From contig JABLXB010000005.1 in the NCBI GenBank assembly GCA_013178305.1, positions 62,001 through 126,000 of the forward strand: a stretch of 64,000 bases of DNA, read 5' to 3'. Under the pieces are notes generated by a model. The model was not told the DNA's origin. It worked only from the letters and a program-made list of their open reading frames with translations, and did no database searches. Made by a program: the position numbers and the translations under genes. Position 1 is the stretch's first letter; the number at the start of each line of letters is the position of its first letter. Positions 41,170-59,162 of the stretch are shown here, in pieces. This stretch comes from Bacillota bacterium. GTDB taxonomy: Bacteria > Bacillota > Sulfobacillia > JABLXB01.

Positions 41170-41189
41170 CAATATTTTGGCTGCTAGGC

Positions 41190-41227
41190 TACGAGGAACC
41201 GCAGGCGGAAGCCTGCGGTTCCTCGTA
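41190..41227 (+). terminator. Seventeen-pair hairpin after codY
   Basis: A perfect 17-base-pair stem with loop GGAA at 41207-41210. The lack of a T-run makes it an atypical terminator, but it likely insulates codY from the flagellar operon or protects the codY mRNA end. Confidence 0.6.
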
Positions 41228-41345
41228 CCTGTCCCGCGCCCCTTCATCGGATTATCGATAGATCTTGAAAAATATTTAGCTGCAAAAGAAGGAAAATGTG
41301 GTAATCTGTCGTATATGAGACAGCACCCAATTAAATAGGGCACGA
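41228..41345. other. AT-rich promoter region of the flagellar operon
   Basis: No gene seen. This AT-rich stretch (for example around 41262-41335) must hold the operon promoter, since the riboswitch follows directly. Elements such as TTGAAA (41265) and TAATCT (41302) are present, but no pair has correct spacing, so I cannot assign the sigma factor. Confidence 0.4.
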
Positions 41346-41437
41346 CTGCGCGATAAATGGCAAACCCACCGAAAGGTGGGGACGCAAAGCCACGGGTCTA
41401 AAGCCGCAAGGCCATGATAGCCGGGTTGCCGAAGCAG
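41346..41437 (+). promoter_or_regulatory. Cyclic di-GMP-I (GEMM) riboswitch aptamer
   Basis: The conserved core is nearly exact: GGCAAACC (41359-41366), a hairpin CCCACC-GAAA-GGTGGG (41365-41380) with the docking tetraloop, GACGCAAAGCCACGGG (41381-41396), and ATGATAGCCGGGTTGCCGA (41414-41432). P1 is closed by CTGC (41346-41349) and GCAG (41434-41437). This RNA class binds the bacterial second messenger c-di-GMP. It leads the whole flagellar operon, whose expression should therefore respond to c-di-GMP, usually a motility-to-biofilm signal. Confidence 0.96.
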
Positions 41438-41450
41438 AGGGGGAGCGTGT

Positions 41451-41495
41451 CTCGCTCGTCTGTTGCGAAGGCAACCGGCGAGCGAGTTTGTTTTT
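41451..41495 (+). terminator. Riboswitch expression platform: intrinsic terminator
   Basis: CTCGCTCGTC (41451-41460) pairs with GGCGAGCGAG (41477-41486), and GTTGC pairs with GCAAC around loop GAAG (41467-41470); TTTGTTTTT follows. A competing small hairpin GAGCG (41443-41447) with CGCTC (41453-41457) would open the terminator. It ends before the flgB ribosome site, so premature termination is the likely control step. Confidence 0.9.
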
Positions 41496-41511
41496 GGTGG
41501 AGGGATCGTGG

Positions 41512-41895
41512 ATGGTAGGCAGGGTCGTCAACGACGCGACGATGTCGCTCCTGGAGAAGGGGCTCGACCTCGCGTCCGTAAGGCACCGCGCGATCTCCGG
41601 AAATCTGGCTAACGCCAACACCCCCGGATATAAGCGCAGAGACGTATCGTTCGAGACGGTCATGCGCCGCGCCATCGAAGGGTCGATGTCCGGCGGTGAC
41701 GACGAGGATGTCCCCATCGAGCGCGTCGTCATGGTCGACGGGAACAGGTCTCAGCGCAACGATGGGAACAACGTCGACGTCGACTACGAGATGACGGTAC
41801 TGGGAGAGAACACGATCATCTACAACGCTATAGCCCGTCAGCTCTCGTTGAAGCTCGCGTTGATGAGGACAGTCATTACCGAGGGGAGGCGGTAG
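41512..41895 (+). CDS. flgB: Flagellar proximal rod protein FlgB
   Basis: A 127-residue rod subunit at the base of the flagellar drive shaft. The rod motif SGNLANANTPGYKRRDVSF is present and the C-terminal helix IYNAIARQLSLKLALMRTVI is typical. ATG 41512 has GGAGGGAT at 41499. It is the first gene after the riboswitch terminator. Confidence 0.95.
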   Translation: MVGRVVNDATMSLLEKGLDLASVRHRAISGNLANANTPGYKRRDVSFETVMRRAIEGSMSGGDDEDVPIERVVMVDGNRSQRNDGNNVDVDYEMTVLGENTIIYNAIARQLSLKLALMRTVITEGRR

Positions 41896-41897
41896 TC

Positions 41898-42341
41898 GTG
41901 CGCATCTTCAGATCCATGGATGCGAGCGCTTCCGGTCTGACCGCTGAAAGGTTGAGGCTCGACATCATCGCCGGAAACCTTGCGAACGCCAACACCACGC
42001 GTACGGCCGAGGGTGGCCCGTACCGCCGGAAGGTCCCCGTGTTTGTCCAGGGTGTAGGCAACGGGTTCCGGTCATTCTTCCAGGTGTTCTCGAAGTCCCT
42101 GGACGAAGCGCAGGGTGTCCAGGTGGGCGCGGTGGTTTCAGACGACCGGCCCGGGAAGATGAAGTACGAGCCCGGGCATCCGGATGCCGACCAGAACGGG
42201 TACGTGGCAATGCCGAACGTCGACGTTGTCACCGAAATGGTAGACATGATATCGGCCACCAGGGGATACGAGGCGAACGTATCCGCAATTAACGCCGCCA
42301 AGCAGATGGCGATGCGGGCGCTGGAGATCGGCCGCAGCTGA
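41898..42341 (+). CDS. flgC: Flagellar proximal rod protein FlgC
   Basis: A 147-residue rod protein, partner of FlgB. The N-terminal block LRLDIIAGNLANANTTRTAEGGPYRRK and the C-terminal NVDVVTEMVDMISATRGYEANVSAINAAKQM match. GTG 41898 with GGGGAGGCGG upstream. Two bases separate it from flgB. Confidence 0.96.
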   Translation: MRIFRSMDASASGLTAERLRLDIIAGNLANANTTRTAEGGPYRRKVPVFVQGVGNGFRSFFQVFSKSLDEAQGVQVGAVVSDDRPGKMKYEPGHPDADQNGYVAMPNVDVVTEMVDMISATRGYEANVSAINAAKQMAMRALEIGRS

Positions 42342-42352
42342 TGGGGGGATGA

Positions 42353-42712
42353 ATGATGCCCGGGATAGGGCCCGTCATAGGTAACATGGGAATACCGGTT
42401 TCGGGGGGTGCCTGGCCGCAGGCTCCGGTGACGAGGTCGAACGGCCTGGAGGGGGCCACAGGCGCATCCGCGCCCGGGACAACCGCTCAGGCACCGTCGT
42501 TTACTTCATATCTCAAGCAGGCGATCGATGACGTGAACGCGCTGCAGGTGGAGGCGGACGCCGCTTCCAGGTCGATGCTCGCCGGCGACGTGTCCGATAT
42601 CCACCGCGTCGTGATCGCGAGCGAGAAGGCAAGCCTGGCCATGCACCTGGCGATCGAGGTCAGGAACAAGGTTATCGAGGCGTACCAGGAGATCATGAGG
42701 ATGCAGGTTTGA
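42353..42712 (+). CDS. fliE: Flagellar hook-basal body protein FliE
   Basis: A 119-residue adaptor linking the MS ring to the rod. The C-terminal region is diagnostic (FTSYLKQAIDDVNALQVEADAASRSMLAGDV, then HRVVIASEKASLAMHLAIEVRNKVIEAYQEIMRMQV). The first 40 residues are a variable Gly/Pro-rich segment. Starts at 42353 or 42356 (ATGATG) are equivalent. Confidence 0.95.
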   Translation: MMPGIGPVIGNMGIPVSGGAWPQAPVTRSNGLEGATGASAPGTTAQAPSFTSYLKQAIDDVNALQVEADAASRSMLAGDVSDIHRVVIASEKASLAMHLAIEVRNKVIEAYQEIMRMQV

Positions 42713-42722
42713 GGGGTGAACC

Positions 42723-44255
42723 ATGACTCCTACGAAAATCTTGGCGCAGGTAATCGAAACCTGGAAGAAGATGTCCCTGGCGGCGAAGGCCGTGGTGTCG
42801 GGAGCCGGAGTGCTCGTGCTAGTCGGACTCATAGTGCTGGTAGCCACGAGCTCTCGCGGTCCGAGGATGGAGCCCCTGTTTACCGGGCTCGATCCGAGGG
42901 ATGCGTCGGACATGGTCGCGCGGCTTGAAAAGGACAAGGTGCCGTACAGGCTGGACGCCGGCGGGACCGCGATACTTGTCGCCGCTCACGACGTGCACAG
43001 GCTGAGATTGGTCCTCGCGGCCGACGGTCTTCCAAGGGGCGGAACCGTCGGGTTCGAGCTTATGGACAAGACCAGGATCGGGGCGACCGACTTCGACCGT
43101 CGCGTGAACTACGTCAGGGCCGTCCAGGGCGAGCTCACGCGCACAATTACGCAGATCGATGGTGTTGAGGCTGCGAGGGTGCACATAGTCCTGCCCGAGC
43201 AGAGCCTTTTCGTGTCCAAGGCAAGGCCGGCCACAGCGGCGGTGCTGGTAAAGGTCCGTCCGATGATGGAGCTGGACAAGCTGCAAGTCCGCGGGATCGC
43301 GAACCTTGTCTCGCGCAGTGTGGAGGGGCTCCGGCCCGAGGACGTCACAATCGTTGACTATAAGGGTAAAGTTCTGTCGTCCGAATACGGCCTGGATCAG
43401 ACCTCGGCGGACAAGCAAGCGGGGTCGTTCATGGAAGTCAAGATGGCCTTTCAGAAAGACCTCGAGCGCAGCGTGCAGACGCTGCTCGAGACGGCCCTGG
43501 GCCAGGGGAACGTGGTGGCGCGCGTCAACGCCGACGTGAGTTTCGACCAGACGACGGTGTCGCGGAGCCTTTTCACGCCGGCCGACAACAACGAGGGCAT
43601 CGCGAGAAGCATCAAGCAACTGCAGGAGGTGTTCCAGGGTACGGGCGGCGGAGCCGGCGGCGTGCCGGGAGTGCCATCCAACGTCCCCGGCTACTCCGGC
43701 GCTACGGTGCAGCCCGGGAACTCCTCCTACCAGAGGACGGAGACCACCAAGAACGTGGAGATTAACGAGGTACGCGAGAACACCGTAGTCGCTCCCGGGA
43801 CAGTGAAGAGGCTTTCGGTGGCGGTGATCGTCAACAGGGACCTCACACCGGCCGAGAAAGGCGCGATCGAGAACACGGTCGCGGCGGCGGTCGGCATCGA
43901 TCCGAAGCGCCAGGACACCATCACCGTTACCGGGATGCTGTTCGACACGACGCTGGTGGACCAGCTGAAGAAAGACATGGAGAAACCCGCCGGCGTGAAG
44001 ATCCCGAAGTACGCGTATGCCGGCGCGGCTGCCCTGGCGCTCGCCATAGTTGCGGGGACGGTTTTCGTGATATTGCGCAGGAGGCGGGCGCTCGAACCTC
44101 AGTCCATCGCCGCGGAGGCCCTCGAGGCGGTCGTGGCCGAATCGAAGGAGCCGACGCCGGCTTCACGCGCGAAGGAGCACATCGAGAAGCTTGTGAGGCA
44201 GAATCCTGAAGGCGTCGCCCAGCTGCTGAAGACGTGGCTGGCGGAGGCGAGGTGA
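42723..44255 (+). CDS. fliF: Flagellar MS-ring protein FliF
   Basis: A 510-residue membrane ring platform of the basal body and export gate. One membrane span lies near residues 25-45 and a second near 435-455 (YAYAGAAALALAIVAGTVFVIL). In between are ring-building motifs such as LFTGLDPRDASDMVARLEKDKVPYRL and the collar region. The C-terminal tail (EHIEKLVRQNPEGVAQLLKTWL) binds FliG. GAGGGGTGAACC precedes ATG. Confidence 0.96.
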   Translation: MTPTKILAQVIETWKKMSLAAKAVVSGAGVLVLVGLIVLVATSSRGPRMEPLFTGLDPRDASDMVARLEKDKVPYRLDAGGTAILVAAHDVHRLRLVLAADGLPRGGTVGFELMDKTRIGATDFDRRVNYVRAVQGELTRTITQIDGVEAARVHIVLPEQSLFVSKARPATAAVLVKVRPMMELDKLQVRGIANLVSRSVEGLRPEDVTIVDYKGKVLSSEYGLDQTSADKQAGSFMEVKMAFQKDLERSVQTLLETALGQGNVVARVNADVSFDQTTVSRSLFTPADNNEGIARSIKQLQEVFQGTGGGAGGVPGVPSNVPGYSGATVQPGNSSYQRTETTKNVEINEVRENTVVAPGTVKRLSVAVIVNRDLTPAEKGAIENTVAAAVGIDPKRQDTITVTGMLFDTTLVDQLKKDMEKPAGVKIPKYAYAGAAALALAIVAGTVFVILRRRRALEPQSIAAEALEAVVAESKEPTPASRAKEHIEKLVRQNPEGVAQLLKTWLAEAR

Positions 44256-44260
44256 GTGTG

Positions 44261-45274
44261 ATGCAGGCGCGTGCTGGCCTATCGGGAAGGCAGAAGGCGG
44301 CGATACTGATGATTTCCCTGGGGCCGGAGCTCTCGTCGAGGGTGTTCAAGCACCTGCGCGACGAGGAGATCGAGCAGCTCACGCTGGAGATCGCCGGTGT
44401 AAAGACCGTGCAGTCCGAGATCAGGGAGAAGGTATTCGAGGAGTTCCACGAGCTTGCCCTGGCTCAGCAGTACCTCAGCGAGGGCGGGATCGAGTATGCC
44501 AAGGAAGTGCTCGAAAAGGCCCTGGGCCAGCAAAAGGCCCTGAACGTACTGCAGCGGCTTACCGCGTCTTTACAGGTTCGGCCGTTCGACTTCCTGAGGA
44601 AGGCCGACCCATCGCAACTCATGGGCTTCATCCAGAACGAGCACCCGCAGACCATATCGCTGATACTGGCTTACCTGCATCCCGATCAGGCTGCGGCGGT
44701 GCTTTCCGCCCTGCCGCCGGAGGCGCAGGTTGAGGTGGCCAGGCGCGTGGCGCTCATGGACCGCACGTCTCCGGAAGTGATAAAGGAAGTCGAGAAGGTG
44801 CTCGAGCGAAAGCTTTCGTCGATGATGACCCACGAGTACTCAATGGCGGGGGGCGTGGGCACCGTGGTGGACGTGCTGAACAAGGTCGACCGCGGGACCG
44901 AGAAGACGATAATCGAGGCGCTCGAGATCCAGGATCCCGAGCTCGCCGAGGAAATCAAGAAGCGCATGTTCGTGTTCGAGGACGTCGTGATGCTCGACGA
45001 CCGGTCGGTGCAGAGAGTGCTGCGTGAGGTCGACATGAGCAAGGACCTGCCGCTGGCTCTCAAGGTCGCCTCCAATGAGGTCAAGGAGAAGATCATGAAG
45101 AACATCTCCAAGCGCGCTCAGGAGAACCTCAAGGAGAGCATGCAGTACCTCGGCCCGGTCAGGCTGCGTGACGTCGAAGAAGCGCAGCAAAAGATCGTCA
45201 ACCTGATCAGGCGCCTCGAGGACGAGGGCGAAGTCATGGTCATGCGCGGGGGGAGGGACGAGATCGTTGTCTAG
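44261..45274 (+). CDS. fliG: Flagellar motor switch protein FliG
   Basis: A 337-residue rotor protein that contacts the stator and sets rotation direction. N, middle and C domains are complete: KAAILMISLGPELSSRVFKHL, the EHPQTISLILAYLHPDQAAAVLSALP motif, and the charged torque helix near MFVFEDVVMLDDRSVQRVLREVD. ATG 44261 follows GGAGGCGAGGTGA. It overlaps fliH by eight bases. Confidence 0.97.
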   Translation: MQARAGLSGRQKAAILMISLGPELSSRVFKHLRDEEIEQLTLEIAGVKTVQSEIREKVFEEFHELALAQQYLSEGGIEYAKEVLEKALGQQKALNVLQRLTASLQVRPFDFLRKADPSQLMGFIQNEHPQTISLILAYLHPDQAAAVLSALPPEAQVEVARRVALMDRTSPEVIKEVEKVLERKLSSMMTHEYSMAGGVGTVVDVLNKVDRGTEKTIIEALEIQDPELAEEIKKRMFVFEDVVMLDDRSVQRVLREVDMSKDLPLALKVASNEVKEKIMKNISKRAQENLKESMQYLGPVRLRDVEEAQQKIVNLIRRLEDEGEVMVMRGGRDEIVV

Positions 45275-46049
45275 GGTGATAAAGTCGGGCGATGTTGCCC
45301 TTACTGAACCGGAGCCGTTGAACCTGAGGGTGATCATCCCGTTCCTGCGCGAGGCGCCAGCCCCGGCATCAGGGGCCCCTCAGGTGGCCGCTGAGGCCAC
45401 ACAGGGAAAAGCGGCGAAGATGGAAGGCCCGTCGCCGCATGAAGAGGCGGACCGGGTTCTGCGCGAGGCGCGGGAGCGGTCCGAGGAGATCCTGGCTGAG
45501 GCTCGCGCCGAGGCCGGCAGGATTAAGGATGTCGCCAGGCTCGAGGGGTTCGAGCTCGGCCAGAAAGAGGGATTCGATGAGGGGCTGAGCCGCGCCGAGA
45601 TCGAGGTCGAAGGGATGAAGAAGGAGGCGGCGCGCCTGGTCGAGGCGGCCAGGGACGAAGCCACGCGCATCGTGGCGGCGGCCGAACCCAAAATCGCCCA
45701 GATCGCCCTGGCGATCGCGAGGAAAGTGATCAAGCGCGAGGTCGCGGCGGACCCTGAGATAGTGCTCGGAAACGTGCGCGAGGCGCTGCGGAGGATCGGA
45801 CGGGACGAATCGGTGTCCGTCAGGACGAGCCCAATTGAAGTCTCCGTCGTGCACGAGGCGCGCAAGGACCTCGCGCGGGAGTTCGACGCAATTTCCGAGA
45901 TAAACGTGGAAGAGGACCCGTCCGTCGGTCCGGGCGGCTGCATAGTGACCACCGGGCGCGGGACCGTGGACGCCCGGATTGAGTCGCAGATCGACAAGGC
46001 CGGGGAGCATCTCATGGAGGCGGTAGATCTCAATGGTCGCGCTGGGTAG
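45267..46049 (+). CDS. fliH: Flagellar export stator protein FliH
   Basis: A 260-residue regulator of the FliI ATPase and export apparatus. A long alanine/glutamate/arginine-rich coiled coil (about 60-150, EARERSEEILAEARAEAGRI) precedes the conserved C-terminal domain (IAQIALAIARKVIKREVAADPEIVLGNVREAL and GGCIVTTGRGTVDARIESQI). TTG 45267 has GGGGGGAGGG upstream. It overlaps fliG and fliI. Confidence 0.92.
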   Translation: MSRVIKSGDVALTEPEPLNLRVIIPFLREAPAPASGAPQVAAEATQGKAAKMEGPSPHEEADRVLREARERSEEILAEARAEAGRIKDVARLEGFELGQKEGFDEGLSRAEIEVEGMKKEAARLVEAARDEATRIVAAAEPKIAQIALAIARKVIKREVAADPEIVLGNVREALRRIGRDESVSVRTSPIEVSVVHEARKDLAREFDAISEINVEEDPSVGPGGCIVTTGRGTVDARIESQIDKAGEHLMEAVDLNGRAG

Positions 46050-47352
46050 GCTGATCGACGCCATAGAAAAGGCCGACACAGTGACGTTCAAGGGAACGAT
46101 CACCCGAGTCGTGGGCCTTGCCATCGAGTCCAGGGGACCCGTGGCCAAGCTCGGTGACATCTGCCAGATCAGACCCCAGCACGGCGAGTCGATACCCGCC
46201 GAGGTCGTGGGGTTCAGGGACGGTAGCGTGCTACTCATGCCCCTTGGTGGGATGGACGGCATCGCCCCAGGCGCCGAGGTCATCGCCCTGGGCCACCCGT
46301 TCCTCGTGCGCGTGGGCAAGGGCCTGCTAGGCCGGGTGCTCAACGGGTTGGGCAAACCCATCGACGGCCGGCCTGAACCTGTGACCGGGACAGTCTACTC
46401 GGCGAACAACGCGCCGCCGGACCCGCTGCTGAGGCGGCGGATCACCAGCCCCCTCGGGGTAGGCGTCAGGGCGATCGACAGCGTGCTCACCTGCGGAAGG
46501 GGCCAGCGTCTCGGCATATTCTCCGGGTCCGGGGTGGGGAAGAGCACGCTCCTCGGCATGATCGCGAGGAACACGTCGGCGGACGTCAGCGTGATAGCGC
46601 TCGTAGGGGAACGTGGCCGCGAGGTCAAGGACTTCATCGAGAAGGACCTCGGGGAGGAAGGCCTCAAGCGCTCAGTGGTGGTCGCCGCAACCTCCGATCA
46701 GCCGGCGCTGATAAGGATCAAGGCGGCGTTCGTGGCGACGGCGATCGCGGAGTTCTTCAGGGACCAGGGTCTGGACGTCGTCCTCATGATGGACTCGGTA
46801 ACGAGGTTTGCGATGGCGCAGCGTGAGGTGGGACTCGCGATCGGCGAACCGCCGGCGACCAGGGGCTACACGCCGTCGGTCTTCGCGCTCCTGCCCAAGC
46901 TCCTGGAACGGTCGGGCACCGCGGCGCGGGGGAGCGTCACGGGGTTCTACACGGTACTCGTGGACGGCGACGACATGAACGAACCCATCGCGGACGCGGT
47001 GAGGGGTATCCTTGACGGGCACATCGTGCTTTCCCGCAACCTCGCGGCGCAGGGGCATTACCCGGCGATCGAGGTCCTGCAGAGCGTGAGCAGGGTTATG
47101 ATCGACGTGGCCACGAGCGAGCACATCTCGTCGGCGATGAAACTCAGGTCCGTGCTTGCCACGTACAAGGAGGCCGAGGACCTGATAAACATAGGCGCGT
47201 ACGTGCCGGGGTCCAATCCGCGGATCGACTACGCGCGGCAGATGATAGACAGGGTCAACGGTTTCCTGCGGCAGGGGATCTACGAGAGCGTTTCATACGA
47301 GGACGCCGTTAACGGGCTGCGTGAGATGTTCGTGGAGGCTGAGGCGGCTTGA
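46033..47352 (+). CDS. fliI: Flagellum-specific ATPase FliI
   Basis: A 439-residue F1-type ATPase that energises substrate delivery to the flagellar export gate. Walker A is GSGVGKSTL, Walker B LDVVLMMDSVTRFAMAQREVG, and the block GEPPATRGYTPSVFALLPKLLERSG is FliI/YscN-specific. ATG 46033 overlaps fliH. Its stop overlaps the TTG of fliJ as TTGA. Confidence 0.97.
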   Translation: MVALGRLIDAIEKADTVTFKGTITRVVGLAIESRGPVAKLGDICQIRPQHGESIPAEVVGFRDGSVLLMPLGGMDGIAPGAEVIALGHPFLVRVGKGLLGRVLNGLGKPIDGRPEPVTGTVYSANNAPPDPLLRRRITSPLGVGVRAIDSVLTCGRGQRLGIFSGSGVGKSTLLGMIARNTSADVSVIALVGERGREVKDFIEKDLGEEGLKRSVVVAATSDQPALIRIKAAFVATAIAEFFRDQGLDVVLMMDSVTRFAMAQREVGLAIGEPPATRGYTPSVFALLPKLLERSGTAARGSVTGFYTVLVDGDDMNEPIADAVRGILDGHIVLSRNLAAQGHYPAIEVLQSVSRVMIDVATSEHISSAMKLRSVLATYKEAEDLINIGAYVPGSNPRIDYARQMIDRVNGFLRQGIYESVSYEDAVNGLREMFVEAEAA

Positions 47353-47798
47353 AGCGGTTCGCGTTCCGGCTCGAGAGGGTACTCAAAGTCAGGGAGACCG
47401 TGCTGTCGACGAGGCAGGTCGCGCTCGCCGGAGCCCAGTTCCGGCTCGGCCAGGAGGAGGAAACCCTCGCCGCCGTCACCGGGACGCTCCGCAGGTCGGA
47501 GAGCCAGTTCCGCAAAGCGGCGTCGGGCGCCGCGGCTCCGTGGCGCCTGGCTCTCGCGTCCAGGTATGTCAGGTTCCTGGAGTTCGAGGAAGATAAGCAG
47601 CAGGTAGAGGTCGAGAAAGCCCGGGACCAGGTGGAGATATGCAGGCAGCGATTGATTGAGGCGCGGCAGGAGACCAGGATCCTTGAGAAACTGAAGGACA
47701 AGCGATTTGGCTCGTACGTATCCGAGGTACTGAAAGAAGACCAATCTACCCTGGACGAGATCGGAGTAACGAGTTACGTAACCAGGGGTCAGGTTTAG
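47349..47798 (+). CDS. fliJ: Flagellar export chaperone FliJ
   Basis: A 149-residue, almost wholly coiled-coil protein that inserts into the FliI ring and contacts FlhA. FAFRLERVLKVRETVLSTRQVALAGAQ is the usual FliJ opening. TTG 47349 overlaps the fliI stop, so translation is coupled. Sequence conservation is low in this family; position is the main support. Confidence 0.88.
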   Translation: MKRFAFRLERVLKVRETVLSTRQVALAGAQFRLGQEEETLAAVTGTLRRSESQFRKAASGAAAPWRLALASRYVRFLEFEEDKQQVEVEKARDQVEICRQRLIEARQETRILEKLKDKRFGSYVSEVLKEDQSTLDEIGVTSYVTRGQV

Positions 47799-47825
47799 GA
47801 GCATTTCAGCGGAAAGGAGGTGAGA

Positions 47826-49334
47826 ATGATGGTGGTTATCGACAGGGCAGTCGGGTTTGACTGTGGGGCGTGCGCCGGGGCCGGGCAAGACCGTAAGCAA
47901 GCGGCCGGCGACGTTCCGGCAGGGGCCTTCGCCGGGTTCGGCGACCTGCTGTCGCTACTCGTGGCGTCCATGGTCCAGCCCGGTGGCCAGGCTGTGCTGG
48001 GAGAACCGGTGGAACCCGGGATCGTAGGCGGGGTAGCCGGAGTGACCGGAACAGCCGTCGCACCCGGGCGTGTTCAATTTGCGAACGGGTCCGGCCAGGG
48101 CGTGCCGTTTCCGGACGGCGGGGTAGCCGGAGCCGCGGGCCTTCAGATGGCGGAAGCCGCGTGTGGTCCCACGCAGAGGCCTGCCGGTGAGGTCACGGGT
48201 ATCGGGGGCGCTGGTACTCAGGCGACGTCGATGTTCGAGAGCGTCGTGGACGCTGGTGCTCAGGCGATGTCGATGTTCGAGAGCGTCGTGGACGCTGGTG
48301 CTCAGGCGATGTCGATGTTGGCGGTCGGGCTGGACAGGCCTCCGGTTGATGGTATCCCGTTCGCCGTGATCGAGACAAAGGACTCGGGCGCTGGTGTAGC
48401 CCACAGCGCGGCCCGGAAAGACGACGGCGCAAACCGGAATGACGGGATCGCGGGCGCTGTGGCACTGGGAGTGGCTGGGGACGGAGTCGCCGGATCGGGG
48501 ACGAGTGAGGAGGCTGAATTGGCCTCTGCCGGAGATGCCGCGGAAGTTGGCGTTAGTGAGCCGGTCAGCGACGTTCCGGTGAAGGCGGGACCGGTTGCCA
48601 CGGGTGAGGACGCGCCAGGCAAATATGCTACTCGGAAGACAGGCGACGCGGCCAGCGCTGAAAAGAGCTCGGAAAAGAGCGCGGAAAGCAGCGCCCGGGC
48701 CGGAGATGAACGGCCTGAGCAGGTACGCCCCAGGAAGTCGGCCGGTCGCACTGACGACGGGGGTCCGGAGACGGACGGCGCGGAATCGTCCAGGAATTCG
48801 GGCCAGCCGTTTGCGACCCACCTGGAGGCGCAGCCGGCGGAAACCGGCGAGGCTGCGGGCGCCCGTGCAACGGGAGTCGACCGCGCCGGACTCCGGACTT
48901 CGGAGATCGCGAGGCAAATCGTCCAGCAGGGGCGGCTCCTGAAGTTCCCCGAGCGGACGGAGGTGGAGATCAGGCTGAAGCCCGAGTGGCTTGGCCGAGT
49001 GACGCTGAGGATCGCATCCCAGGAGGGGCGTATCTCCGCGAGGTTCACGGTCGGGGAAGCCGGGGCCAAGACCGAAATCGAGTCGCGCCTCGGCGAACTC
49101 AGGCAAGGAATGTCCGACCAGGGCCTCGAGGTGAGTGACATCTCAGTCTCCGTTGGGGACGGACGCCAGTGGGCCGGACAACGCCACTGGGCACCGCAGG
49201 ACGGTCAGATGGGCGGTAACCGTGGGGCGGCAGCCCACACCGGAGCCGCTGAGCCGACGGCGCCCGGTGACGTGGTGGTGGGGTTGCGTGCGCGTTACCG
49301 GTCAACGCCGGGGTCGTTGGACCTCATGGCGTGA
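47826..49334 (+). CDS. fliK: Flagellar hook-length control protein FliK
   Basis: A 502-residue secreted ruler that switches export from hook to filament subunits. The C-terminal hook-length domain is recognisable (FPERTEVEIRLKPEWLGRVTLRI, then ARFTVGEAGAKTEIESRLGELR, ending near residue 450). The N-terminal 350 residues are Gly/Ala/Glu-rich and variable, and include 14-residue tandem repeats (see 48210-48320). ATG 47826 has AAAGGAGG just upstream. Bacillus places ylxF between fliJ and fliK; here there is none. Confidence 0.88.
   Translation: MMVVIDRAVGFDCGACAGAGQDRKQAAGDVPAGAFAGFGDLLSLLVASMVQPGGQAVLGEPVEPGIVGGVAGVTGTAVAPGRVQFANGSGQGVPFPDGGVAGAAGLQMAEAACGPTQRPAGEVTGIGGAGTQATSMFESVVDAGAQAMSMFESVVDAGAQAMSMLAVGLDRPPVDGIPFAVIETKDSGAGVAHSAARKDDGANRNDGIAGAVALGVAGDGVAGSGTSEEAELASAGDAAEVGVSEPVSDVPVKAGPVATGEDAPGKYATRKTGDAASAEKSSEKSAESSARAGDERPEQVRPRKSAGRTDDGGPETDGAESSRNSGQPFATHLEAQPAETGEAAGARATGVDRAGLRTSEIARQIVQQGRLLKFPERTEVEIRLKPEWLGRVTLRIASQEGRISARFTVGEAGAKTEIESRLGELRQGMSDQGLEVSDISVSVGDGRQWAGQRHWAPQDGQMGGNRGAAAHTGAAEPTAPGDVVVGLRARYRSTPGSLDLMA
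48210..48320 (+). repeat. 42-base tandem repeat within fliK
   Basis: Two complete near-identical 42-base units (48210-48251 and 48252-48293) and a partial third (48294 to about 48320). The unit encodes AGAQAMSMFESVVD, so length changes would stay in frame and would lengthen the ruler in 14-residue steps. Confidence 0.9.
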
Positions 49335-49380
49335 TCTGTGGCCAGCCAGGTGGGACACGACGAAAAGGAGGTTAGGGACG

Positions 49381-49752
49381 ATGGAGATCCAGGGTGTACA
49401 GGGCACGACGACCCAGAGCACGACGGCGGTCACCAAGAGCGCGCAAGATCTCTCGGGACAATTCATGAAGCTGCTCGCGGCCGAGCTCAAATACCAGGAC
49501 CCGATGTCGCCGCTCGAGGACAAGGACCTCATGGCGCAGGTCGCACAACTCTCGACGCTCGACTCGATCAACGAGATGAAAGAGAGCCAGGAAAGGTTGA
49601 TGGCAGCCTCGCTCGTGGGCAGGCAGGTCAAGGTGGCCGACGGCGACTCGGAGCTCGAGGGCCTTGTGTGGGGCGTCAGGCTTCGTGATGGCATAGGGCT
49701 GCTGATCGGGGACAAGGAGGTTTCACTGGACCAGGTGATCGAGGTGAGGTGA
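49381..49752 (+). CDS. flgD: Flagellar hook-capping protein FlgD
   Basis: A 123-residue scaffold required for hook assembly. The conserved N-terminal part is present: LSGQFMKLLAAELKYQDPMSPLEDKDLMAQVAQLSTLDSINEM. The protein ends after a short beta segment (LVGRQVKVADGDSELEGLVWGVRLRDG), lacking the Ig-like C-terminal domain of enteric FlgD, as in many Bacillota. ATG 49381 follows AAAAGGAGG. Confidence 0.93.
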   Translation: MEIQGVQGTTTQSTTAVTKSAQDLSGQFMKLLAAELKYQDPMSPLEDKDLMAQVAQLSTLDSINEMKESQERLMAASLVGRQVKVADGDSELEGLVWGVRLRDGIGLLIGDKEVSLDQVIEVR

Positions 49753-49759
49753 ACTCAGG

Positions 49760-50146
49760 ATGGCCATCGACGGGCTTGAAGCCTCAAGACGGCTGATTCC
49801 CATAGGGCCGCCGGGGCCAAGGCCTCCTGTGGAAGGGGCGGAGCGGGCGCCCGGTGAGTTCCGGAAGATCCTGGAGAGCGAGCTCGACGGGCACAGGCTG
49901 AAGTTCTCGGCTCACGCGCAGAAGAGAATCGAGCAGAGCCCGGTGAGTTTCGGCAGGGCGGAAGTGGACAGGGTGGCCAGGGCGGTGAATCTGGCGGAGT
50001 CCAAGGGCTCAAGGGAATCGCTGGTACTGCTTGATAACATGGCGCTGGTGGTGAGCGTGAAGAACCGCACGGTGATCACGGCGGTGGACATGCAGAGGAT
50101 GAAAGACAACATCTTCACAAACATCGACAGCGCGGTGATCGTGTAA
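49760..50146 (+). CDS. Flagellar operon protein (conserved, function unknown)
   Basis: A 128-residue protein of the small family found between flgD and flgE in Bacillota flagellar operons. The core LKFSAHAQKRIEQSPVSFGRAEVDRVARAVNLAESKGSRESLVLLDNMALVVSVKNRTVITAVD is highly typical. A role in hook assembly is assumed from position only. It is followed by a 126-base structured gap before flgE. Confidence 0.88.
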   Translation: MAIDGLEASRRLIPIGPPGPRPPVEGAERAPGEFRKILESELDGHRLKFSAHAQKRIEQSPVSFGRAEVDRVARAVNLAESKGSRESLVLLDNMALVVSVKNRTVITAVDMQRMKDNIFTNIDSAVIV

Positions 50147-50272: not shown

Positions 50273-51490
50273 ATGATGCGTTCGATGTTCTCGGCCGTTT
50301 CGGGCCTGAAGACCCACCAGATAAGGATGGACGCCATCGGCAACAACATCGCCAACGTCAACACGATCGGCTTCAAAGCCGGCCGCGTGACCTTTCAGGA
50401 GATGTTCAGCCAGACAATGAGGGGCGCGTCGGCGCCCGACGCTGACAAGGGCGGCACCAACCCGCAGCAAGTGGGGCTCGGTGTAGCACTGGGAAGCATC
50501 GACACGATCCATGGCCAGGGCAACCGGCAATCGACCGCCAAGGTCACCGACCTCGCGATCCAGGGCAGTGGGTTTTTTGTAGTCGATGACGGTGGCACGA
50601 AGTACTACACCCGCGCCGGCGCGTTCGACCTCGACAGCCAGGGCAACCTGGTTGACCCCGGCGGGAGGCTGGTCCAGGGCTGGATGGCCACGAACGGCGT
50701 GTTCGGGTCGAAGGACACCGCGACCCTGTCGAGCATAGCGATTCCGGTTGGGCAGGCCATCCAGGCGACGCCTACTACGAACGTGACCTGGGGTCACAAC
50801 CTGGACGCAAGCGCCGTCGCTGGCTTCACCCGGACGACGTCGGTGGACGCACTCGACTCACTCGGCCGGTCCCACTCCATAACCATGGAGTTCCAGAAGA
50901 CGGCGGTCCCAAACGAGTGGGCGTGGACCGCAACCGGACCGGCCGGCATCTCGGGCAACACGGGGACGATCACGTTTAACCCCGACGGGACGTTTAACGC
51001 AATGACCGGTGGCCCGGTGCAGTTCAGCCCGGCAGGAGCCAACCCGGTCAGCATTACGTGGGACTTCAGCCGTGTCACACAGAACGCCGGCGAGTCCTCT
51101 ATGGAGTTCATCGAAAGGGACGGGAGCCCGATGGGCACCCTCGGGAGGATCACGATAGATGCGTCCGGCGTAATCACCGGGACGTACTCAAACGGCCGTA
51201 CGCAGGCGATAGCGCAGGTATCCATCGGGAACTTCGCGAACCCGGGTGGCCTCCTGAGAGTCGGTGACAACCTGTACGAGGAGTCGAACAACTCCGGTCC
51301 GGTACAGATAGGTGAGGCGGGCACCGGCGGCCGCGGGGACATATTCCCGAGCGCGCTGGAGATGTCCAACGTGGACCTGGCGGAGGAGTTCACCAGCATG
51401 ATCGTTACCCAGAGAGGCTTCCAGGCCAACTCGAGGGTAATCACGGCCTCCGACGAGCTACTGCAGGACCTGGTTAATCTGAAGAGGTAA
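50273..51490 (+). CDS. flgE: Flagellar hook protein FlgE
   Basis: A 405-residue subunit of the universal joint. The N-terminal MFSAVSGLKTHQIRMDAIGNNIANVNTIGFK and C-terminal SNVDLAEEFTSMIVTQRGFQANSRVITASDELLQDLVNLKR coiled-coil segments flank variable surface domains. ATG 50273 (or 50276) follows AAAGGGAGGTC. A separate hook-basal protein pair flgF/flgG is not in the window. Confidence 0.95.
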   Translation: MMRSMFSAVSGLKTHQIRMDAIGNNIANVNTIGFKAGRVTFQEMFSQTMRGASAPDADKGGTNPQQVGLGVALGSIDTIHGQGNRQSTAKVTDLAIQGSGFFVVDDGGTKYYTRAGAFDLDSQGNLVDPGGRLVQGWMATNGVFGSKDTATLSSIAIPVGQAIQATPTTNVTWGHNLDASAVAGFTRTTSVDALDSLGRSHSITMEFQKTAVPNEWAWTATGPAGISGNTGTITFNPDGTFNAMTGGPVQFSPAGANPVSITWDFSRVTQNAGESSMEFIERDGSPMGTLGRITIDASGVITGTYSNGRTQAIAQVSIGNFANPGGLLRVGDNLYEESNNSGPVQIGEAGTGGRGDIFPSALEMSNVDLAEEFTSMIVTQRGFQANSRVITASDELLQDLVNLKR

Positions 51491-51516
51491 CGCTTGAGGC
51501 TCAGGGGGAGTGACCT

Positions 51517-51750
51517 ATGGTCAAGGTTCGCCGGCTGAACGGTGAGGAGATTGTCATAAGTGCCGACATGATCGAGGCCATGGAGGCCACCCCGGATACG
51601 GTCATAACACTGACCAACGGCAAGCGGTTCGTCGTGAAGGACAGCGTGGACGATGTGATCCGGAAGGTCGTCGAGTACAAGAGGGGCATCTTCGGGTTCC
51701 CCTGGGGGTGCCCCCCTTCCTCCCCTGGCTGCGGATCGTTTGGGGGGTAA
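51517..51750 (+). CDS. flbD: FlbD family flagellar protein
   Basis: A 77-residue protein typical of this position in spirochaete and Bacillota operons: VKVRRLNGEEIVISADMIEAMEATPDTVITLTNGKRFVVKDSVDDVIRKV. The C-terminal FPWGCPPSSPGCGSFGG is an unusual Cys/Pro/Gly tail. Function in motility is not defined. Confidence 0.88.
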   Translation: MVKVRRLNGEEIVISADMIEAMEATPDTVITLTNGKRFVVKDSVDDVIRKVVEYKRGIFGFPWGCPPSSPGCGSFGG

Positions 51751-51753
51751 CGT

Positions 51754-52560
51754 ATGGACGTCGGGACGCTAGTAGGGCTCGGACTGGGATTCACGTTCAT
51801 AATCCTAGGGATTGTGCAGGGAGGGAACCTGGCCGGTTTCTGGGACTTCCCGTCGATAATGATCACTTGCGGGGGGTGCCTCGCCTCCACGGTCGTTGCG
51901 TACCCGCTGTTACAGCTGTCCGCGGTTACGAAGGTCCTGCGCAAGGCGTTCATGACGAAGAATGACGATCCGTCCAGCATAATAGATTTCCTGGTCCAGT
52001 TCGCCGAGAAGGCGAGGCGGGAGGGGCTCCTCTCGCTGGAAGAGGACGCCGATCAGCTGGAGGACGACTTTCTTAAGAAGGGTATCCAGCTCGTGGTCGA
52101 CGGGACTGACCCCGAGCTTGTGCGGACGATGCTTGAGACGGAGCTTGCGTTCCTCGAGGAGAGGCACAAGCAAGGCCAGGCGATGTTCGAGACGATGGGC
52201 AGCATGGCGCCCGCGTACGGCATGATCGGCACGCTCATCGGACTCATCCAGATGTTGCGCACACTGGATGACCCGAAGAAAATAGGCCCGGGTATGGCGG
52301 TGGCCATCGTTACCACGTTCTACGGAGCCGTGCTGTCCAATCTCGTGTTCATGCCAATCGCGAACCGGCTCAAGGTCAGGACCGCCGAGGAGATCCTCCT
52401 CAAGGAGGTTATGATCGAGGGCATTCTCTCGATCCAGTCCGGCGACAACCCCAGGATCGTGGAGGAGAAGCTCAAGTCATTCCTCGCGCCCAATCTCAGG
52501 AAGTCCACCAGGGGCCGGATAGGGGAGGTGGCCGAGAATGGCCAGGCGGCAGAAAGGTAG
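51754..52560 (+). CDS. motA: Flagellar motor stator protein MotA
   Basis: A 268-residue four-helix membrane protein forming the ion channel with MotB and pushing on FliG. Hydrophobic segments lie near residues 7-25, 34-52, 148-170 and 180-200. The cytoplasmic loop has the charged REGLLSLEEDADQLEDDFLKKGIQLVVDG, and GSMAPAYGMIGTLIGLIQML is the conserved helix pair. It overlaps motB by 23 bases. Confidence 0.95.
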   Translation: MDVGTLVGLGLGFTFIILGIVQGGNLAGFWDFPSIMITCGGCLASTVVAYPLLQLSAVTKVLRKAFMTKNDDPSSIIDFLVQFAEKARREGLLSLEEDADQLEDDFLKKGIQLVVDGTDPELVRTMLETELAFLEERHKQGQAMFETMGSMAPAYGMIGTLIGLIQMLRTLDDPKKIGPGMAVAIVTTFYGAVLSNLVFMPIANRLKVRTAEEILLKEVMIEGILSIQSGDNPRIVEEKLKSFLAPNLRKSTRGRIGEVAENGQAAER

Positions 52561-53299
52561 TCCGTCAGGATCGGCGCCGGCGACCTGGATCACGACATAC
52601 GGTGATATGATGTCGCTGCTCCTGACCTTCTTTATCCTGTTGTTCGCGCTCTCGACCATAAACGAAGCCAAGTTCAGGCTGGCCAGGGCATCGCTGGCGG
52701 CGGCGTTCGGCGGCATATTCACCGAAAACACCACGGTGGTGGGCGAGGCGACGCCACCGACGCAACAGCAGCTGGAAGCCGCCCTGCAGGAGTTGGAGAG
52801 ACAGGACTTCGCGCAGTTTGAGGACGTACGCCAGGCTGTGCAGAATTACGTGGCCAGGGAAGGACTCGCCACGCAGATAGAGGTGTCGGAGGACTCGCGC
52901 GGTCTGATAATCCGGTTTGCCGATTCGGTGCTGTTCGACCTGGGTAAGGCCGACCTCAGGCCGGACGCAAGGTCGATACTCGACAAGGTGATTGCGGTCA
53001 TAAAACCGCTCCCTAATCACATCAGGGTCGAGGGGCACACCGACGACCTGAAGATCAACACCGAGAGGTTCCCGTCGAACTGGGAGCTCTCGGCGGGGCG
53101 CTCGAGCGCCGTGGCGCGGTATTTCATTGATAGGCACGGAATGCCGCCCACGCGGCTGTCAATTGCCGGCTACGGAGAGTACCGGCCGATCGCACCCAAT
53201 GACAGCGAATCTAACAGGCGGAGAAACCGTCGCGTCGACATAGTTATCCTGAGGCTCAGTACGGGACGAAACGAGCCGAAAGCCGGGGGGGCCTGGTAA
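52538..53299 (+). CDS. motB: Flagellar motor stator protein MotB
   Basis: A 253-residue stator subunit. D23 in TTYGDMMSLLLTFFILLFALS is the ion-carrying aspartate in the single membrane helix. A C-terminal OmpA-like peptidoglycan-binding domain includes LFDLGKADLRPDARSILD and VEGHTDDLKINTERFPSNWELSAGRS. Whether protons or sodium ions are used cannot be told. ATG has GGGGAGGTGG upstream. Confidence 0.95.
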   Translation: MARRQKGSPSGSAPATWITTYGDMMSLLLTFFILLFALSTINEAKFRLARASLAAAFGGIFTENTTVVGEATPPTQQQLEAALQELERQDFAQFEDVRQAVQNYVAREGLATQIEVSEDSRGLIIRFADSVLFDLGKADLRPDARSILDKVIAVIKPLPNHIRVEGHTDDLKINTERFPSNWELSAGRSSAVARYFIDRHGMPPTRLSIAGYGEYRPIAPNDSESNRRRNRRVDIVILRLSTGRNEPKAGGAW

Positions 53300-53300
53300 C

Positions 53301-53732
53301 GTGAAGAAGTTCCTTCCCAGGGTGATCAGTGTTGTGGTGGCCACATTGCTGATTACGGGTGTGTCCGCGGGCACGGCCTACATAATCACCAGGAGACCGC
53401 TGGTCATAAGGGAGGCCAAGAGCGCAAAGAAGGGTATGTTCTCGGCCGGCGAGTTCACGACCAACCTTGCGCCGAACGAAGCCAAGACGAAGTACATCAA
53501 GGTCAGGATCGAGCTCGAGGTCGCGGATGAGAAGAGCCTCGAGGCTATGGCTGCTCAACAGGCGGTCATAAGGGACCAGATACTCGGCGTGCTGCGGTCG
53601 AAGACATTCCACGACGTGACGGGCGACGAAGGTATGCAGGCCCTCGGCCGCGCGATCGTGGTACAGCTGAACAACGTGCTGAAAGGTACGCAGGTAACAG
53701 GGGTTTATTTCACCGAGTTCGTCGTGCAGTAA
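53301..53732 (+). CDS. fliL: Flagellar basal body protein FliL
   Basis: A 143-residue protein with one N-terminal membrane helix (VISVVVATLLITGVSAGTAYII) and a periplasm-side SPFH-like domain (FSAGEFTTNLAPNEAKTKYIKVRIELEV, ending LKGTQVTGVYFTEFVVQ). It surrounds the stator and raises motor output. GTG 53301 directly follows motB. Confidence 0.9.
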   Translation: MKKFLPRVISVVVATLLITGVSAGTAYIITRRPLVIREAKSAKKGMFSAGEFTTNLAPNEAKTKYIKVRIELEVADEKSLEAMAAQQAVIRDQILGVLRSKTFHDVTGDEGMQALGRAIVVQLNNVLKGTQVTGVYFTEFVVQ

Positions 53733-53757: not shown

Positions 53758-54738
53758 ATGGAGATGTTGAGCCAGGCGGAAGTCGATCAGCTCATATCAC
53801 AACTGGCGACAGGCGTTCCCGCGAAGACCGGTGGGCGGTCGAAGCAGGATGAACCCAGCGTGGGTAGTGTGAGGATATACGACTTCCGGAGACCCGACAA
53901 GTTCTCCAAGGACCAGCTGAGGACGATTCAGATGATCCACGACGGCCTGTCGAGGCAGCTGACCGGATTTCTGGCCAGCAAGACCAGGACGGTCGTGCAG
54001 CTATTCATAACGTCCGTGGACCAGATGACGTACATGGAATTCCTCAGGGGGGTTTCAAACCCCGGCATAATCGGCGTGATCAACATGACGCCGCTCAACG
54101 GGAGGGCCCTTCTCGAGATAACCCCCAACGTCGGGTTTCCAATGATAGACCGGCTGCTGGGTGGTCCGGGGCACGCCATGAGCAAGGCGCGTTCGCTGAC
54201 GGAGATAGAGCTGACTGTCATCGACGGTATAATACGCGGTTTTGTCGGTGCCCTCATGGAATCGTGGAAGAACATCATTGAGATCGAACCCTCGCTCGAA
54301 GGGATAGAGACCAACCCGTTGTTCGTGCAGGTCATCGCACCCAACGAGGTAGTGGTCGTGGTTTCAATGGAGACACGCATCGGCGATTGTGCGGGCGCAA
54401 TGAACCTGTGCCTCCCGTACCTCTGCATTGAGCCCGTACTCCCGAGGCTGTCCGCCCACCAGTGGTTCTCGAGCGCGCAGCGTAGCGGGCAAAAGGAGAC
54501 GGAGAGCATAACCACCGGCCTCAGCGAGGTGTCGCTCAACATCACCGCGGAGCTCGGGGATGCGGAGATTACTGTGGAAGACCTGCTCAGCCTGGAGCCC
54601 GGCGACGTCGTGGAGCTACGCCAGAGGATCAGCCAGTGCCTCAAGGTTATCGTAGACGGCCGGTACAAGCTGGCCGGCAGGGCGGTCAGGTCCGGGAAGA
54701 AAATCGCGGTTGTCATCAGTAAGGCTGTGGGGGAGTGA
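53758..54738 (+). CDS. fliM: Flagellar motor switch protein FliM
   Basis: A 326-residue C-ring protein. The N-terminal LSQAEVDQLISQL motif binds phosphorylated CheY. The CheC-like middle domain includes VYITSVDQMTYMEFLRGVSNP-type segments (seen as FITSVDQMTYMEFLRG), and the C-terminal SpoA domain LLSLEPGDVVELRQRISQCLKVIVDGRYKLAGRAV pairs with FliN. Followed by fliY after six bases. Confidence 0.96.
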   Translation: MEMLSQAEVDQLISQLATGVPAKTGGRSKQDEPSVGSVRIYDFRRPDKFSKDQLRTIQMIHDGLSRQLTGFLASKTRTVVQLFITSVDQMTYMEFLRGVSNPGIIGVINMTPLNGRALLEITPNVGFPMIDRLLGGPGHAMSKARSLTEIELTVIDGIIRGFVGALMESWKNIIEIEPSLEGIETNPLFVQVIAPNEVVVVVSMETRIGDCAGAMNLCLPYLCIEPVLPRLSAHQWFSSAQRSGQKETESITTGLSEVSLNITAELGDAEITVEDLLSLEPGDVVELRQRISQCLKVIVDGRYKLAGRAVRSGKKIAVVISKAVGE

Positions 54739-54744
54739 AATAGC

Positions 54745-55824
54745 ATGGGCGGCGTCATAAAGGGGACGGGTATGCCGGGAGACCGGGAACTCAAGGCGCT
54801 GGGGGAAATGATGGGGCGGGTACTTTCCGCAACCACGGACGCCCTCGGCACGCTGTTGGGCAGGAAGGTGTCCTTCGAGGCGGGCGGCGCCACCGTGGTT
54901 AAACAGGGGCCGGTGCTCGACAAGCAGGGAGAGCGGGTACTGGCGGCCATAGCCCTGAACGGAGAGGCGGAAGGGAACGCAGTTCTCAGTTGCGCCGCCG
55001 CATCCGCTGTCGTGCTAATCGACCTCATGATGGGGGGAGACGGATCCGGGGCGGACCAGGCGTTGAAGCCTGAGGAGATCGACGCGCTGGGGGAACTCGT
55101 GAACCAGGCAACCGGCGCGGCGATGACCGGGCTGGGCGCCCTGTACGGAATCCAGTGCAAGCACTCCGTCCAGAGGGTTTTCACCGTCGCGCCGGATTCG
55201 GTCGACGCGTTCAACCAGAGGCTCGATTACCCTGTCATAAATCTCTCCTGGACTATGCAGATCGGCGAGAGCCTGGCGGTGGAGTTCGATCAGATCGTGG
55301 AAAGGCGGCTCATCACGGCCCTGCTTGACGCGCTCAACGAGAAAGGTGATGCGCGGGATGCGAAGCCCGCGGCGCCCAAGGCGGCTCCTGCGGTAGCGCT
55401 GGAGCAGGCGCCTGCCGCAGGGGTTTCCGACGCGGCCCTCCTGATTTCGAGGCAGTCCGGGATCTCGGGAGATGGCAATGGCGCAGGGGCGCAGACCGGT
55501 CCGGTGCCGGTTCGGATGCACCAGTTCCCCGAGCTCGAGGGAGCGGGGGTCTCACAGGAGCCTCGAAAGATAGACATGCTGCTGGACGTACCCCTGAACC
55601 TCACCGTGGAACTCGGGCGGACGAGGAGACTCGTGAAAGACATCCTCCAGCTGGGGCCGGGGTCTGTTATAGAACTGGACAAGCTCGCGGGTGAGGCTGT
55701 CGATGTGCTGGTCAACGGCAGGCTGCTTGCGAAGGCCGAAGTTGTGGTGATAGACGAAAATTTCGGGGTCAGGATCACGGAGATCGTCGGCCGGACCGAT
55801 CGGCTCAAGGACCTCAGGCAATAG
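54745..55824 (+). CDS. fliY: Flagellar switch phosphatase FliY (CheC-FliN type)
   Basis: A 359-residue protein: a CheC-like phosphatase domain (about 15-195, with EEIDALGELVNQATGAAMTGLG carrying an ExxN active-site pair) is joined by an Ala/Pro-rich linker (about 198-265) to a C-terminal FliN/SpoA domain (IDMLLDVPLNLTVELGRTRRLVKDILQL). In Bacillus FliY both builds the C ring and removes phosphate from CheY. Here the extreme N-terminus does not show the LSQxEIDxLL CheY-binding motif. No cheY lies beside it. Confidence 0.92.
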   Translation: MGGVIKGTGMPGDRELKALGEMMGRVLSATTDALGTLLGRKVSFEAGGATVVKQGPVLDKQGERVLAAIALNGEAEGNAVLSCAAASAVVLIDLMMGGDGSGADQALKPEEIDALGELVNQATGAAMTGLGALYGIQCKHSVQRVFTVAPDSVDAFNQRLDYPVINLSWTMQIGESLAVEFDQIVERRLITALLDALNEKGDARDAKPAAPKAAPAVALEQAPAAGVSDAALLISRQSGISGDGNGAGAQTGPVPVRMHQFPELEGAGVSQEPRKIDMLLDVPLNLTVELGRTRRLVKDILQLGPGSVIELDKLAGEAVDVLVNGRLLAKAEVVVIDENFGVRITEIVGRTDRLKDLRQ

Positions 55825-55834
55825 GGGTGAGCGG

Positions 55835-56194
55835 ATGTTCCAGGTAATCCAGGCTTTGTTCTTCCTGGCACTGGTCGCGGGACTTGCGTATCTTGCCTCG
55901 AGGCTCATGGGGGCCGGCGTCGTTCGCATGGCTCAGGGGCGAAGAATCCGGCTGATCGAAGTCGTCAGCCTGGGGGCGAGGAGGCACGCCTGCATAGTCT
56001 CGGTTGGCGGGCGGGCGTTCCTGCTGGGCGTGACCGAGCAGTGCGTTTCGAAAATCGCCGAGTTCGCCGGCGATGAGGCGGAGGCTCTGTGGGCGGCCGA
56101 GTCGCTCGAGGATGGATACTCCGCGGGTTCGCCCGATTTCCTCTCGAAGCTGGGCTCGATTTTGAAGAGGCCGGGGGAGGGCCGCAAGGGATGA
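55835..56194 (+). CDS. fliO: Flagellar export protein FliO
   Basis: A 119-residue protein with one membrane helix (VIQALFFLALVAGLAYLASRL) and a small cytoplasmic domain (RRIRLIEVVSLGARRHACIVSVGGRAFLLGVTEQ). It helps assemble FliP in the export gate. Its stop overlaps the fliP start as ATGA. Confidence 0.9.
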   Translation: MFQVIQALFFLALVAGLAYLASRLMGAGVVRMAQGRRIRLIEVVSLGARRHACIVSVGGRAFLLGVTEQCVSKIAEFAGDEAEALWAAESLEDGYSAGSPDFLSKLGSILKRPGEGRKG

Positions 56195-56958
56195 GTCGTC
56201 GTGGCCGGACCCTCGTGGTCCTCGCAGTTGTCATCGCATCGGTGTTGGTGGTGAGCCGTGGCGCCGGAGCCGCGCCTCAGATTCCCATCCCGAAGATAAG
56301 CATTGACGTCGGGACTGCGGACAAGCCGCAGGAAGTCTCGGGCGCGCTGAAGATCCTCCTGCTGCTCACTGTGCTGTCGCTGGCGCCGGCGATCCTGATC
56401 CTGATGACCTCGTTCACGAGGATCATGGTGGTGCTGTCGTTCGTGAGGAACGCTCTCGCGACCCAACAGATGCCACCGAACCAGGTGCTTATCGGGCTTG
56501 CGCTTTTCTTGACGTTTTTCGTGATGTCGCCCGTCTGGAACCAGGTAAACGATAACGCGCTGCAGCCTTACCTGGCCGGTGAGATCGCCCAGGACCGCGC
56601 GATGGAGCTCGCGCTGAAACCGGTTCGCGAGTTCATGCTCAAGCAGACCCGGGAGAAGGACCTGGAGCTGTTCATCGGCCTCGGGGGGTTCCCGAGGCCG
56701 AATACGCCGGACGACGTGCCGACTTACGCCATCGTCCCCGCGTTCTGCCTGAGCGAACTGAAGACGGCCTTCCAGATAGGGTTCATGGTATTCGTCCCGT
56801 TCCTGGTCATCGACATGGTAGTGGCGGCGACGCTCATGTCCATGGGCATGTTGATGCTGCCGCCGATGATGATATCGCTTCCCTTCAAGATACTCCTCTT
56901 CGTGCTCGTGGACGGCTGGCACCTGATTACGAAGTCGCTGCTGCTGAGCTTCAAGTGA
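56191..56958 (+). CDS. fliP: Flagellar export gate protein FliP
   Basis: A 255-residue gate protein. An N-terminal signal-like segment (residues about 7-25) precedes the conserved helices ILLLLTVLSLAPAILILMTSFTRIMVVLSFVRNALATQQMPPNQVLIGLALFLT-type region and FVPFLVIDMVVAATLMSMGMLMLPP. ATG 56191 overlaps the fliO stop; the longer upstream frame is not used. Followed by fliQ. Confidence 0.96.
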   Translation: MSRRGRTLVVLAVVIASVLVVSRGAGAAPQIPIPKISIDVGTADKPQEVSGALKILLLLTVLSLAPAILILMTSFTRIMVVLSFVRNALATQQMPPNQVLIGLALFLTFFVMSPVWNQVNDNALQPYLAGEIAQDRAMELALKPVREFMLKQTREKDLELFIGLGGFPRPNTPDDVPTYAIVPAFCLSELKTAFQIGFMVFVPFLVIDMVVAATLMSMGMLMLPPMMISLPFKILLFVLVDGWHLITKSLLLSFK

Positions 56959-56977
56959 CCGTCGCGGGGGTGGCGGA

Positions 56978-57247
56978 ATGACTCAGGAATTCGTTATTTC
57001 CATGGGGCGCGAAAGCCTCGGGATCGTGCTCCTGTTGTGTGGCCCGCTGGTCGGACTGGCCCTCGTGGTCGGGATACTCGTTTCATTGTTCCAGGCGACA
57101 ACGCAGATACACGAGCAGACGCTGACCTTCGCGCCGAAGATGGTGGCAGTGTTCGCGGGCCTGTTGATATTCGGCCCGTGGATGCTGACGACCGCCGTGG
57201 AGTACACGGTGCGCCTCCTGAGCGCGATACCGGCGAACGTCAGGTAG
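56978..57247 (+). CDS. fliQ: Flagellar export gate protein FliQ
   Basis: An 89-residue two-helix protein of the FliPQR gate: GPLVGLALVVGILVSLFQATTQIHEQTLTFAPKMVAVF is highly conserved. The stop directly abuts GTG 57248 of fliR. Confidence 0.96.
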   Translation: MTQEFVISMGRESLGIVLLLCGPLVGLALVVGILVSLFQATTQIHEQTLTFAPKMVAVFAGLLIFGPWMLTTAVEYTVRLLSAIPANVR

Positions 57248-59128: not shown

Positions 59129-59162
59129 TGATTGATCGCCAGGTCCGGAAGGGGGTGGGTCG

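Follow-up and report, generated by a model that had tools for sequence, protein, structure and literature searches.

The leader at positions 41346-41495 of the window (the whole 64,000-nt stretch of DNA that was analyzed) is a real feature and very probably acts as a transcriptional OFF switch of the c-di-GMP-I type in front of the early flagellar operon, similar to Cd1 of Clostridioides difficile. As modeled by folding calculations, this operon is most likely shut off at high c-di-GMP, as has been shown in C. difficile. The type of feature, a c-di-GMP-I switch before a flgB operon, is already well known and ordinary; the less ordinary point is the trio of switches before flgB, flgF-flgG and flp/tad, which is repeated in five other examined genomes of the class. 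These results extend a well-studied switch of a pathogen to a little-studied and largely uncultivated lineage. The features are listed in Table 1, where the host genome is the one from which the window was taken.

Table 1. Coordinates of the riboswitch, the operon genes and related elements (window positions unless a locus or contig is named)
Feature	Position	Strand	Evidence
Weak candidate extended -10 box (TGG-TAATCT), leader promoter	41302-41307	+	Top score in 41170-41349
c-di-GMP-I (GEMM-I) riboswitch aptamer	41349-41433	+	RF01051 covariance model, full length
Antiterminator hairpin, predicted	41420-41479	+	Minimum-free-energy fold
Intrinsic terminator hairpin	41451-41486	+	-26.1 kcal/mol
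Terminator U-tract TTTGTTTTT	41487-41495	+	Sequence
flgB, first operon gene	41512-41895	+	TIGR01396, 96 bits, above cut-off
flgC, fliE, fliF	41898-44255	+	TIGR01395, TIGR00205, TIGR00206
fliG, fliH, fliI, fliJ	44234-47798	+	TIGR00207, FliH models below cut-offs, TIGR03497, TIGR02473
fliK, flgD, TIGR02530-family gene	47820-50146	+	PF02120, PF03963, TIGR02530
flgE, flbD, motA, motB, fliL	50273-53732	+	Profile matches; flbD by PF06289
fliM, fliY, fliO, fliP, fliQ, fliR	53758-58027	+	Profile matches
flhB, flhA	58049-61193	+	TIGR00328, TIGR01398
YcgR-like PilZ protein, predicted c-di-GMP receptor	61190-61843	+	PF07238, PF12945
fliA/whiG-type sigma-28	61855-62634	+	TIGR02479, 270 bits
fapA (DUF342)	62651-64000, on to 64018 outside the window	+	PF03961, PF20250 (L064:4651-6015)
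Second c-di-GMP-I aptamer with terminator, before flgF-flgG	L002:1501-1594, G000:C1:754824-754917	-	Directly downstream of mreB/mbl gene
Third c-di-GMP-I aptamer, before flp pilin and tad operon	L003:1501-1588, G000:C3:272633-272720	+	RNA match

The c-di-GMP-I aptamer

A covariance-model search of the whole window identified a match to RF01051 (score, 89.2 bits; gathering score, 35 bits; E = 2.3e-16) that covered model positions 1-87 of 87. This outcome bears out the sequence-only reading, which had described the core as an almost exact GEMM-I match and had proposed a search with the Rfam c-di-GMP-I model. No other RNA family reached its gathering score anywhere in the window, and RF01051 was again the sole family above cut-off when 41200-41600 was searched alone. 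The sequence and its Rfam alignment contained GGCAAACC, GACGCAAAGCC and GUUGCCG together with a GAAA loop. We take the ligand-contacting bases to be G20, A47 and C92 in Vc2 numbering, along with a GNRA loop on P2; the aptamer carries G, A and C at the equivalent positions, and its GAAA tetraloop is intact. In addition, the full leader was more stable in folding than 200 of 200 dinucleotide shuffles (z = -2.8). On the basis of sequence, the 41349-41433 element is a c-di-GMP-I riboswitch aptamer, which is predicted to bind its ligand.

The flagellar operon and its transcription

Profile matches downstream of the leader defined 27 co-directional genes, from flgB (41512) to fapA/DUF342 (ending at 64018, 18 bases past the window), that span 22,507 nt, whereas the genes 5′ of the leader are hslU and codY. 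The overlaps of fliK with flgD and of fliO with fliP in the list of open reading frames are probably due to over-long start choices. Terminator-like pattern matches inside the block numbered 6 and 10, close to the averages of 7.4 and 6.1 in shuffles, and the intergenic gaps were mostly <35 nt, with the widest being 126 nt; as far as sequence patterns indicate, the block appears to contain no credible terminator. About 27 genes from flgB through fliA to the DUF342 gene, with no other clear terminator, had also been reported by the sequence-only reading, and its proposal that motor, export, stator and sigma-28 could all be controlled by a single RNA agrees with an aptamer and terminator that head the flgB-to-fapA operon, fliA included. 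A promoter-like site is located ahead of rpsB (L064:6395; rpsB was assigned by position and deduced start, without a model match), indicating a probable end of the block at about 64.4 kb.

The same reading had considered the reach of this switch to be unusually large. This is ruled out by C. difficile, where the flgB operon under Cdi-1-3/Cd1 comprises 29 genes over 23 kb with sigD inside (PMC6200980, PMC6366702), slightly more than the 27 genes over 22.5 kb in the host genome; the two operons are thus similar in size, and both include the flagellar sigma factor.

Because the PilZ brake gene lies within the operon, c-di-GMP could act on both operon transcription and the motor, with the YcgR-like brake itself placed under the switch. 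The RxxxR (RSFVR) and DxSxxG (DISAGG) motifs are intact in the translation of this protein.

We infer that the 27 genes are transcribed from one promoter upstream of the leader. The best site in the scanned 41170-41349 interval scored 8.0 (shuffle median, 7.4; 95%, 11.6), and no leader promoter above shuffle level was found there. It is possible, but in our view doubtful, that the distal genes from motA to fapA, fliA included, depend largely on internal promoters, in which case the switch would gate only part of the operon. Internal promoters are frequent in long operons, and weak sigma-70-like sites were found, the best at 62006-62033 inside fliA and another at 51494-51521 near flbD. However, promoter-like matches in 40300-64000 numbered 1 and 6, at or modestly above shuffle expectation, an exact sigma-28 consensus was absent from the whole window, and the mostly short intergenic gaps also argue against this explanation.

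Between codY and the leader, we observed a hairpin with 16 bp of perfect pairing, a loop of 4 bases and no U-tract (41191-41226), which is perhaps the end of the codY transcript.

The expression platform and the predicted direction of switching

The strong terminator that the sequence-only reading had placed after the aptamer was recovered as a hairpin followed by a U-tract, although a simple pattern scan overlooked it because its loop is large and partly paired. In the folding ensemble, the mean probability of the terminator stem was 1.00 on the platform alone, 0.09-0.10 in the unconstrained full leader and ∼0.99 when the aptamer was enforced, with the two outermost pairs at 0.43 and 0.74. 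In the antiterminator, the outer helix pairs the aptamer 3′ strand GCCGGGUUGCC (41420-41430) with GGCAACCGGC (41470-41479), and the inner helices pair 41434-41441 with 41459-41466 and 41443-41447 with 41453-41457. The three outer antiterminator pairs had probabilities of 0.87-0.88 in the unconstrained ensemble. The innermost 5-bp helix had previously been proposed as the competing hairpin; it does exist, but it is the inner part of the longer helix and is ruled out as the entire antiterminator. Because the antiterminator recruits the aptamer 3′ strand, the device is predicted to be ligand-responsive and OFF.

The aptamer and terminator folds were compatible with each other, and both excluded the antiterminator. 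The best energies were -66.4 kcal/mol with the aptamer forced and -68.5 kcal/mol without constraint. This difference of 2.1 kcal/mol, obtained from a two-state calculation that treats secondary structure at equilibrium and leaves out tertiary contacts and kinetics, is small, and ligand binding could overturn it. In this leader, the aptamer 3′ strand was also more complementary to the terminator than in stem-preserving shuffles (p = 0.01).

At low c-di-GMP, the antiterminator would take up the aptamer 3′ strand and keep the terminator stem open, allowing polymerase to continue into flgB and on through the other 26 genes of the operon. At high c-di-GMP, the bound aptamer would retain this strand, the terminator and U-tract would form, and transcription would end upstream of flgB, with a joint drop in basal body, export gate, stator, switch complex, YcgR-like brake and sigma-28. 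Because the terminator fits the bound aptamer and the antiterminator needs the aptamer open, bound ligand should terminate transcription.

The same design is found in Cd1, where T+H form the terminator and T+A+H the antiterminator (PMC9262584). Both leaders have a c-di-GMP-I aptamer, an aptamer-compatible terminator on its 3′ side and an antiterminator built partly from the aptamer 3′ strand, the combination that marks a Cd1-type OFF switch in folding. The sequence-only reading had rightly pointed to comparable flagellar switches in Clostridioides: Cd1 heads the flgB operon and turns it OFF both in vitro and in cells (PMC6366702, PMC3649979). A difference is that Cd1 lies in a 496-nt 5′ UTR (PMC3649979), whereas in the host genome 16 nt separate the end of the terminator from the flgB start.

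An ON switch, or a translational switch rather than ligand-induced termination, is unlikely for this c-di-GMP-I leader. GEMM-I riboswitches of both signs are known, as Bc2 is ON, and Vibrio cholerae has switches that operate without termination (PMC6366702). However, the terminator here lies entirely 3′ of the aptamer and can form alongside it while the antiterminator uses up the aptamer 3′ strand, whereas in the ON-type Geobacter pilM switch the aptamer and terminator exclude each other (PMC9262584). This GEMM-Ib riboswitch has a homologous aptamer fold but responds to cGAMP (PMC9262584). The flgB ribosome-binding site (about 41496-41504) lies outside both the aptamer/terminator and the antiterminator folds, which also argues against translational control.

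We infer that the ligand of the proposed OFF switch is c-di-GMP. GEMM-Ib aptamers presumably have a non-G base at the equivalent of Vc2 position 20, and the aptamer studied here has a G. With this G and the 7 GGDEF proteins of the host genome (EAL domains, 0), it is very improbable that the main ligand is another cyclic dinucleotide such as cGAMP, although the GEMM-I aptamer closely resembles that of GEMM-Ib (PMC9262584). The equivalent of Vc2 G20 in Cd1 is a selectivity factor among cyclic dinucleotides (PMC9262584). A search of the host genome for c-di-GMP-II riboswitches, run without a positive control, detected none.

Other c-di-GMP-I switches in the host genome and its class

The host genome contains three c-di-GMP-I aptamers in total. 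The leader of flgF-flgG is predicted to be bistable, with terminator probabilities of 0.86 on the platform alone and 0.02 in the full leader. The flp/tad leader may be either an ON or an OFF switch: its hairpin has a poor U-tract, its complementarity test was not significant (p = 0.24), and 0 of 11 tad leaders were bistable in folding.

In the class, which includes Symbiobacterium thermophilum, c-di-GMP-I aptamers were present in 58 of 61 genomes. We examined the 132 of 150 listed aptamer matches that had downstream DNA, and the next genes were flgB (33), flgF-flgG (19), tad/flp pilus (17), fliA (3) and others (60). The 33 flgB-preceding aptamers belonged to 31 genomes, two of which had tandem aptamers, and five more genomes (G006, G013, G059, G012 and G026) had a pre-flgB aptamer by coordinates or direct scan. 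An aptamer was thus located just upstream of flgB in 36 of the 55 class genomes having a FlgB-family match. The same-family genomes G001 and G002 were outside the leader comparison, as the flgB fragment of G001 begins inside the gene and flgB of G002 is at a contig end.

A hairpin and U-tract followed the aptamer in 32 of the 33 class flgB leaders. When related leaders were counted as independent, the aptamer 3′ strand was more complementary to the terminator than in stem-preserving shuffles across 29 flgB leaders (Fisher p = 1e-9) and across 12 flgF-flgG leaders (p = 1e-7), and the 29 flgB leaders also differed from reverse-complement hairpins (Wilcoxon p = 0.003). In unconstrained folds, the terminator probability was <0.5 in just 8 of the 29 flgB leaders, and most still favored the terminator. 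The host flgB leader is among the clearest bistable cases in this modeling, and the predicted mechanism of the others depends to a greater extent on the complementarity test.

Switches precede flgF-flgG in 19 examined class genomes and tad/flp genes in 15. The flgB and flgF-flgG switches occurred together in 14 examined genomes, and all three in six, host included. A tentative proposal, which we regard as possible rather than probable, is that separate c-di-GMP-I switches (before the flgB operon, flgF-flgG, flp/tad and, in some relatives, fliA) wire the flagellar program in this class instead of a protein master regulator, with flagellum and pilus output set by RNA alone and possibly with opposite signs. 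Our literature search on GEMM with Tad pili or Limnochordia found nothing relevant. The recurrence of switches before flgB, flgF-flgG and tad makes RNA-only coordination of motility and attachment open to testing.

Aptamers before flgB in other Bacillota

In a phylum sample of the best 30 flgB loci, an aptamer was present just upstream in 13; in a second set, none of the 20 loci, which came mainly from Clostridia and in part from Bacilli and other phyla, had one before flgB. Same-strand aptamers precede the flgB match by about 50-190 nt in Carboxydocella thermautotrophica (L166), Pelotomaculum sp. UBA3103 (L177), a Fermentithermobacillaceae MAG (L189) and a Symbiobacterium thermophilum MAG (L168), the last measured from the nearer aptamer of a tandem pair. 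Some members from other Bacillota differ in scoring best with RF03167 (c-di-GMP-I-GGC). The aptamer-before-flgB arrangement is common, showing that Bacillota widely place their flgB operons under c-di-GMP-I control and that this is not a C. difficile speciality.

The tandem pair that sets Symbiobacterium apart is located at L168:2106-2199 and 2302-2398, and another class member has a tandem pair before flgB in L093 (G018:C69:52907-52995 and 53070-53158); in both, each aptamer is followed by a hairpin and U-tract. Such tandem aptamers may form a steeper or two-input gate. In L136, L088 and L116 (G039, G015 and G029, respectively), a c-di-GMP-I aptamer lies directly 5′ of a gene for a fliA-like sigma factor, as though this gene had a switch to itself in these genomes.
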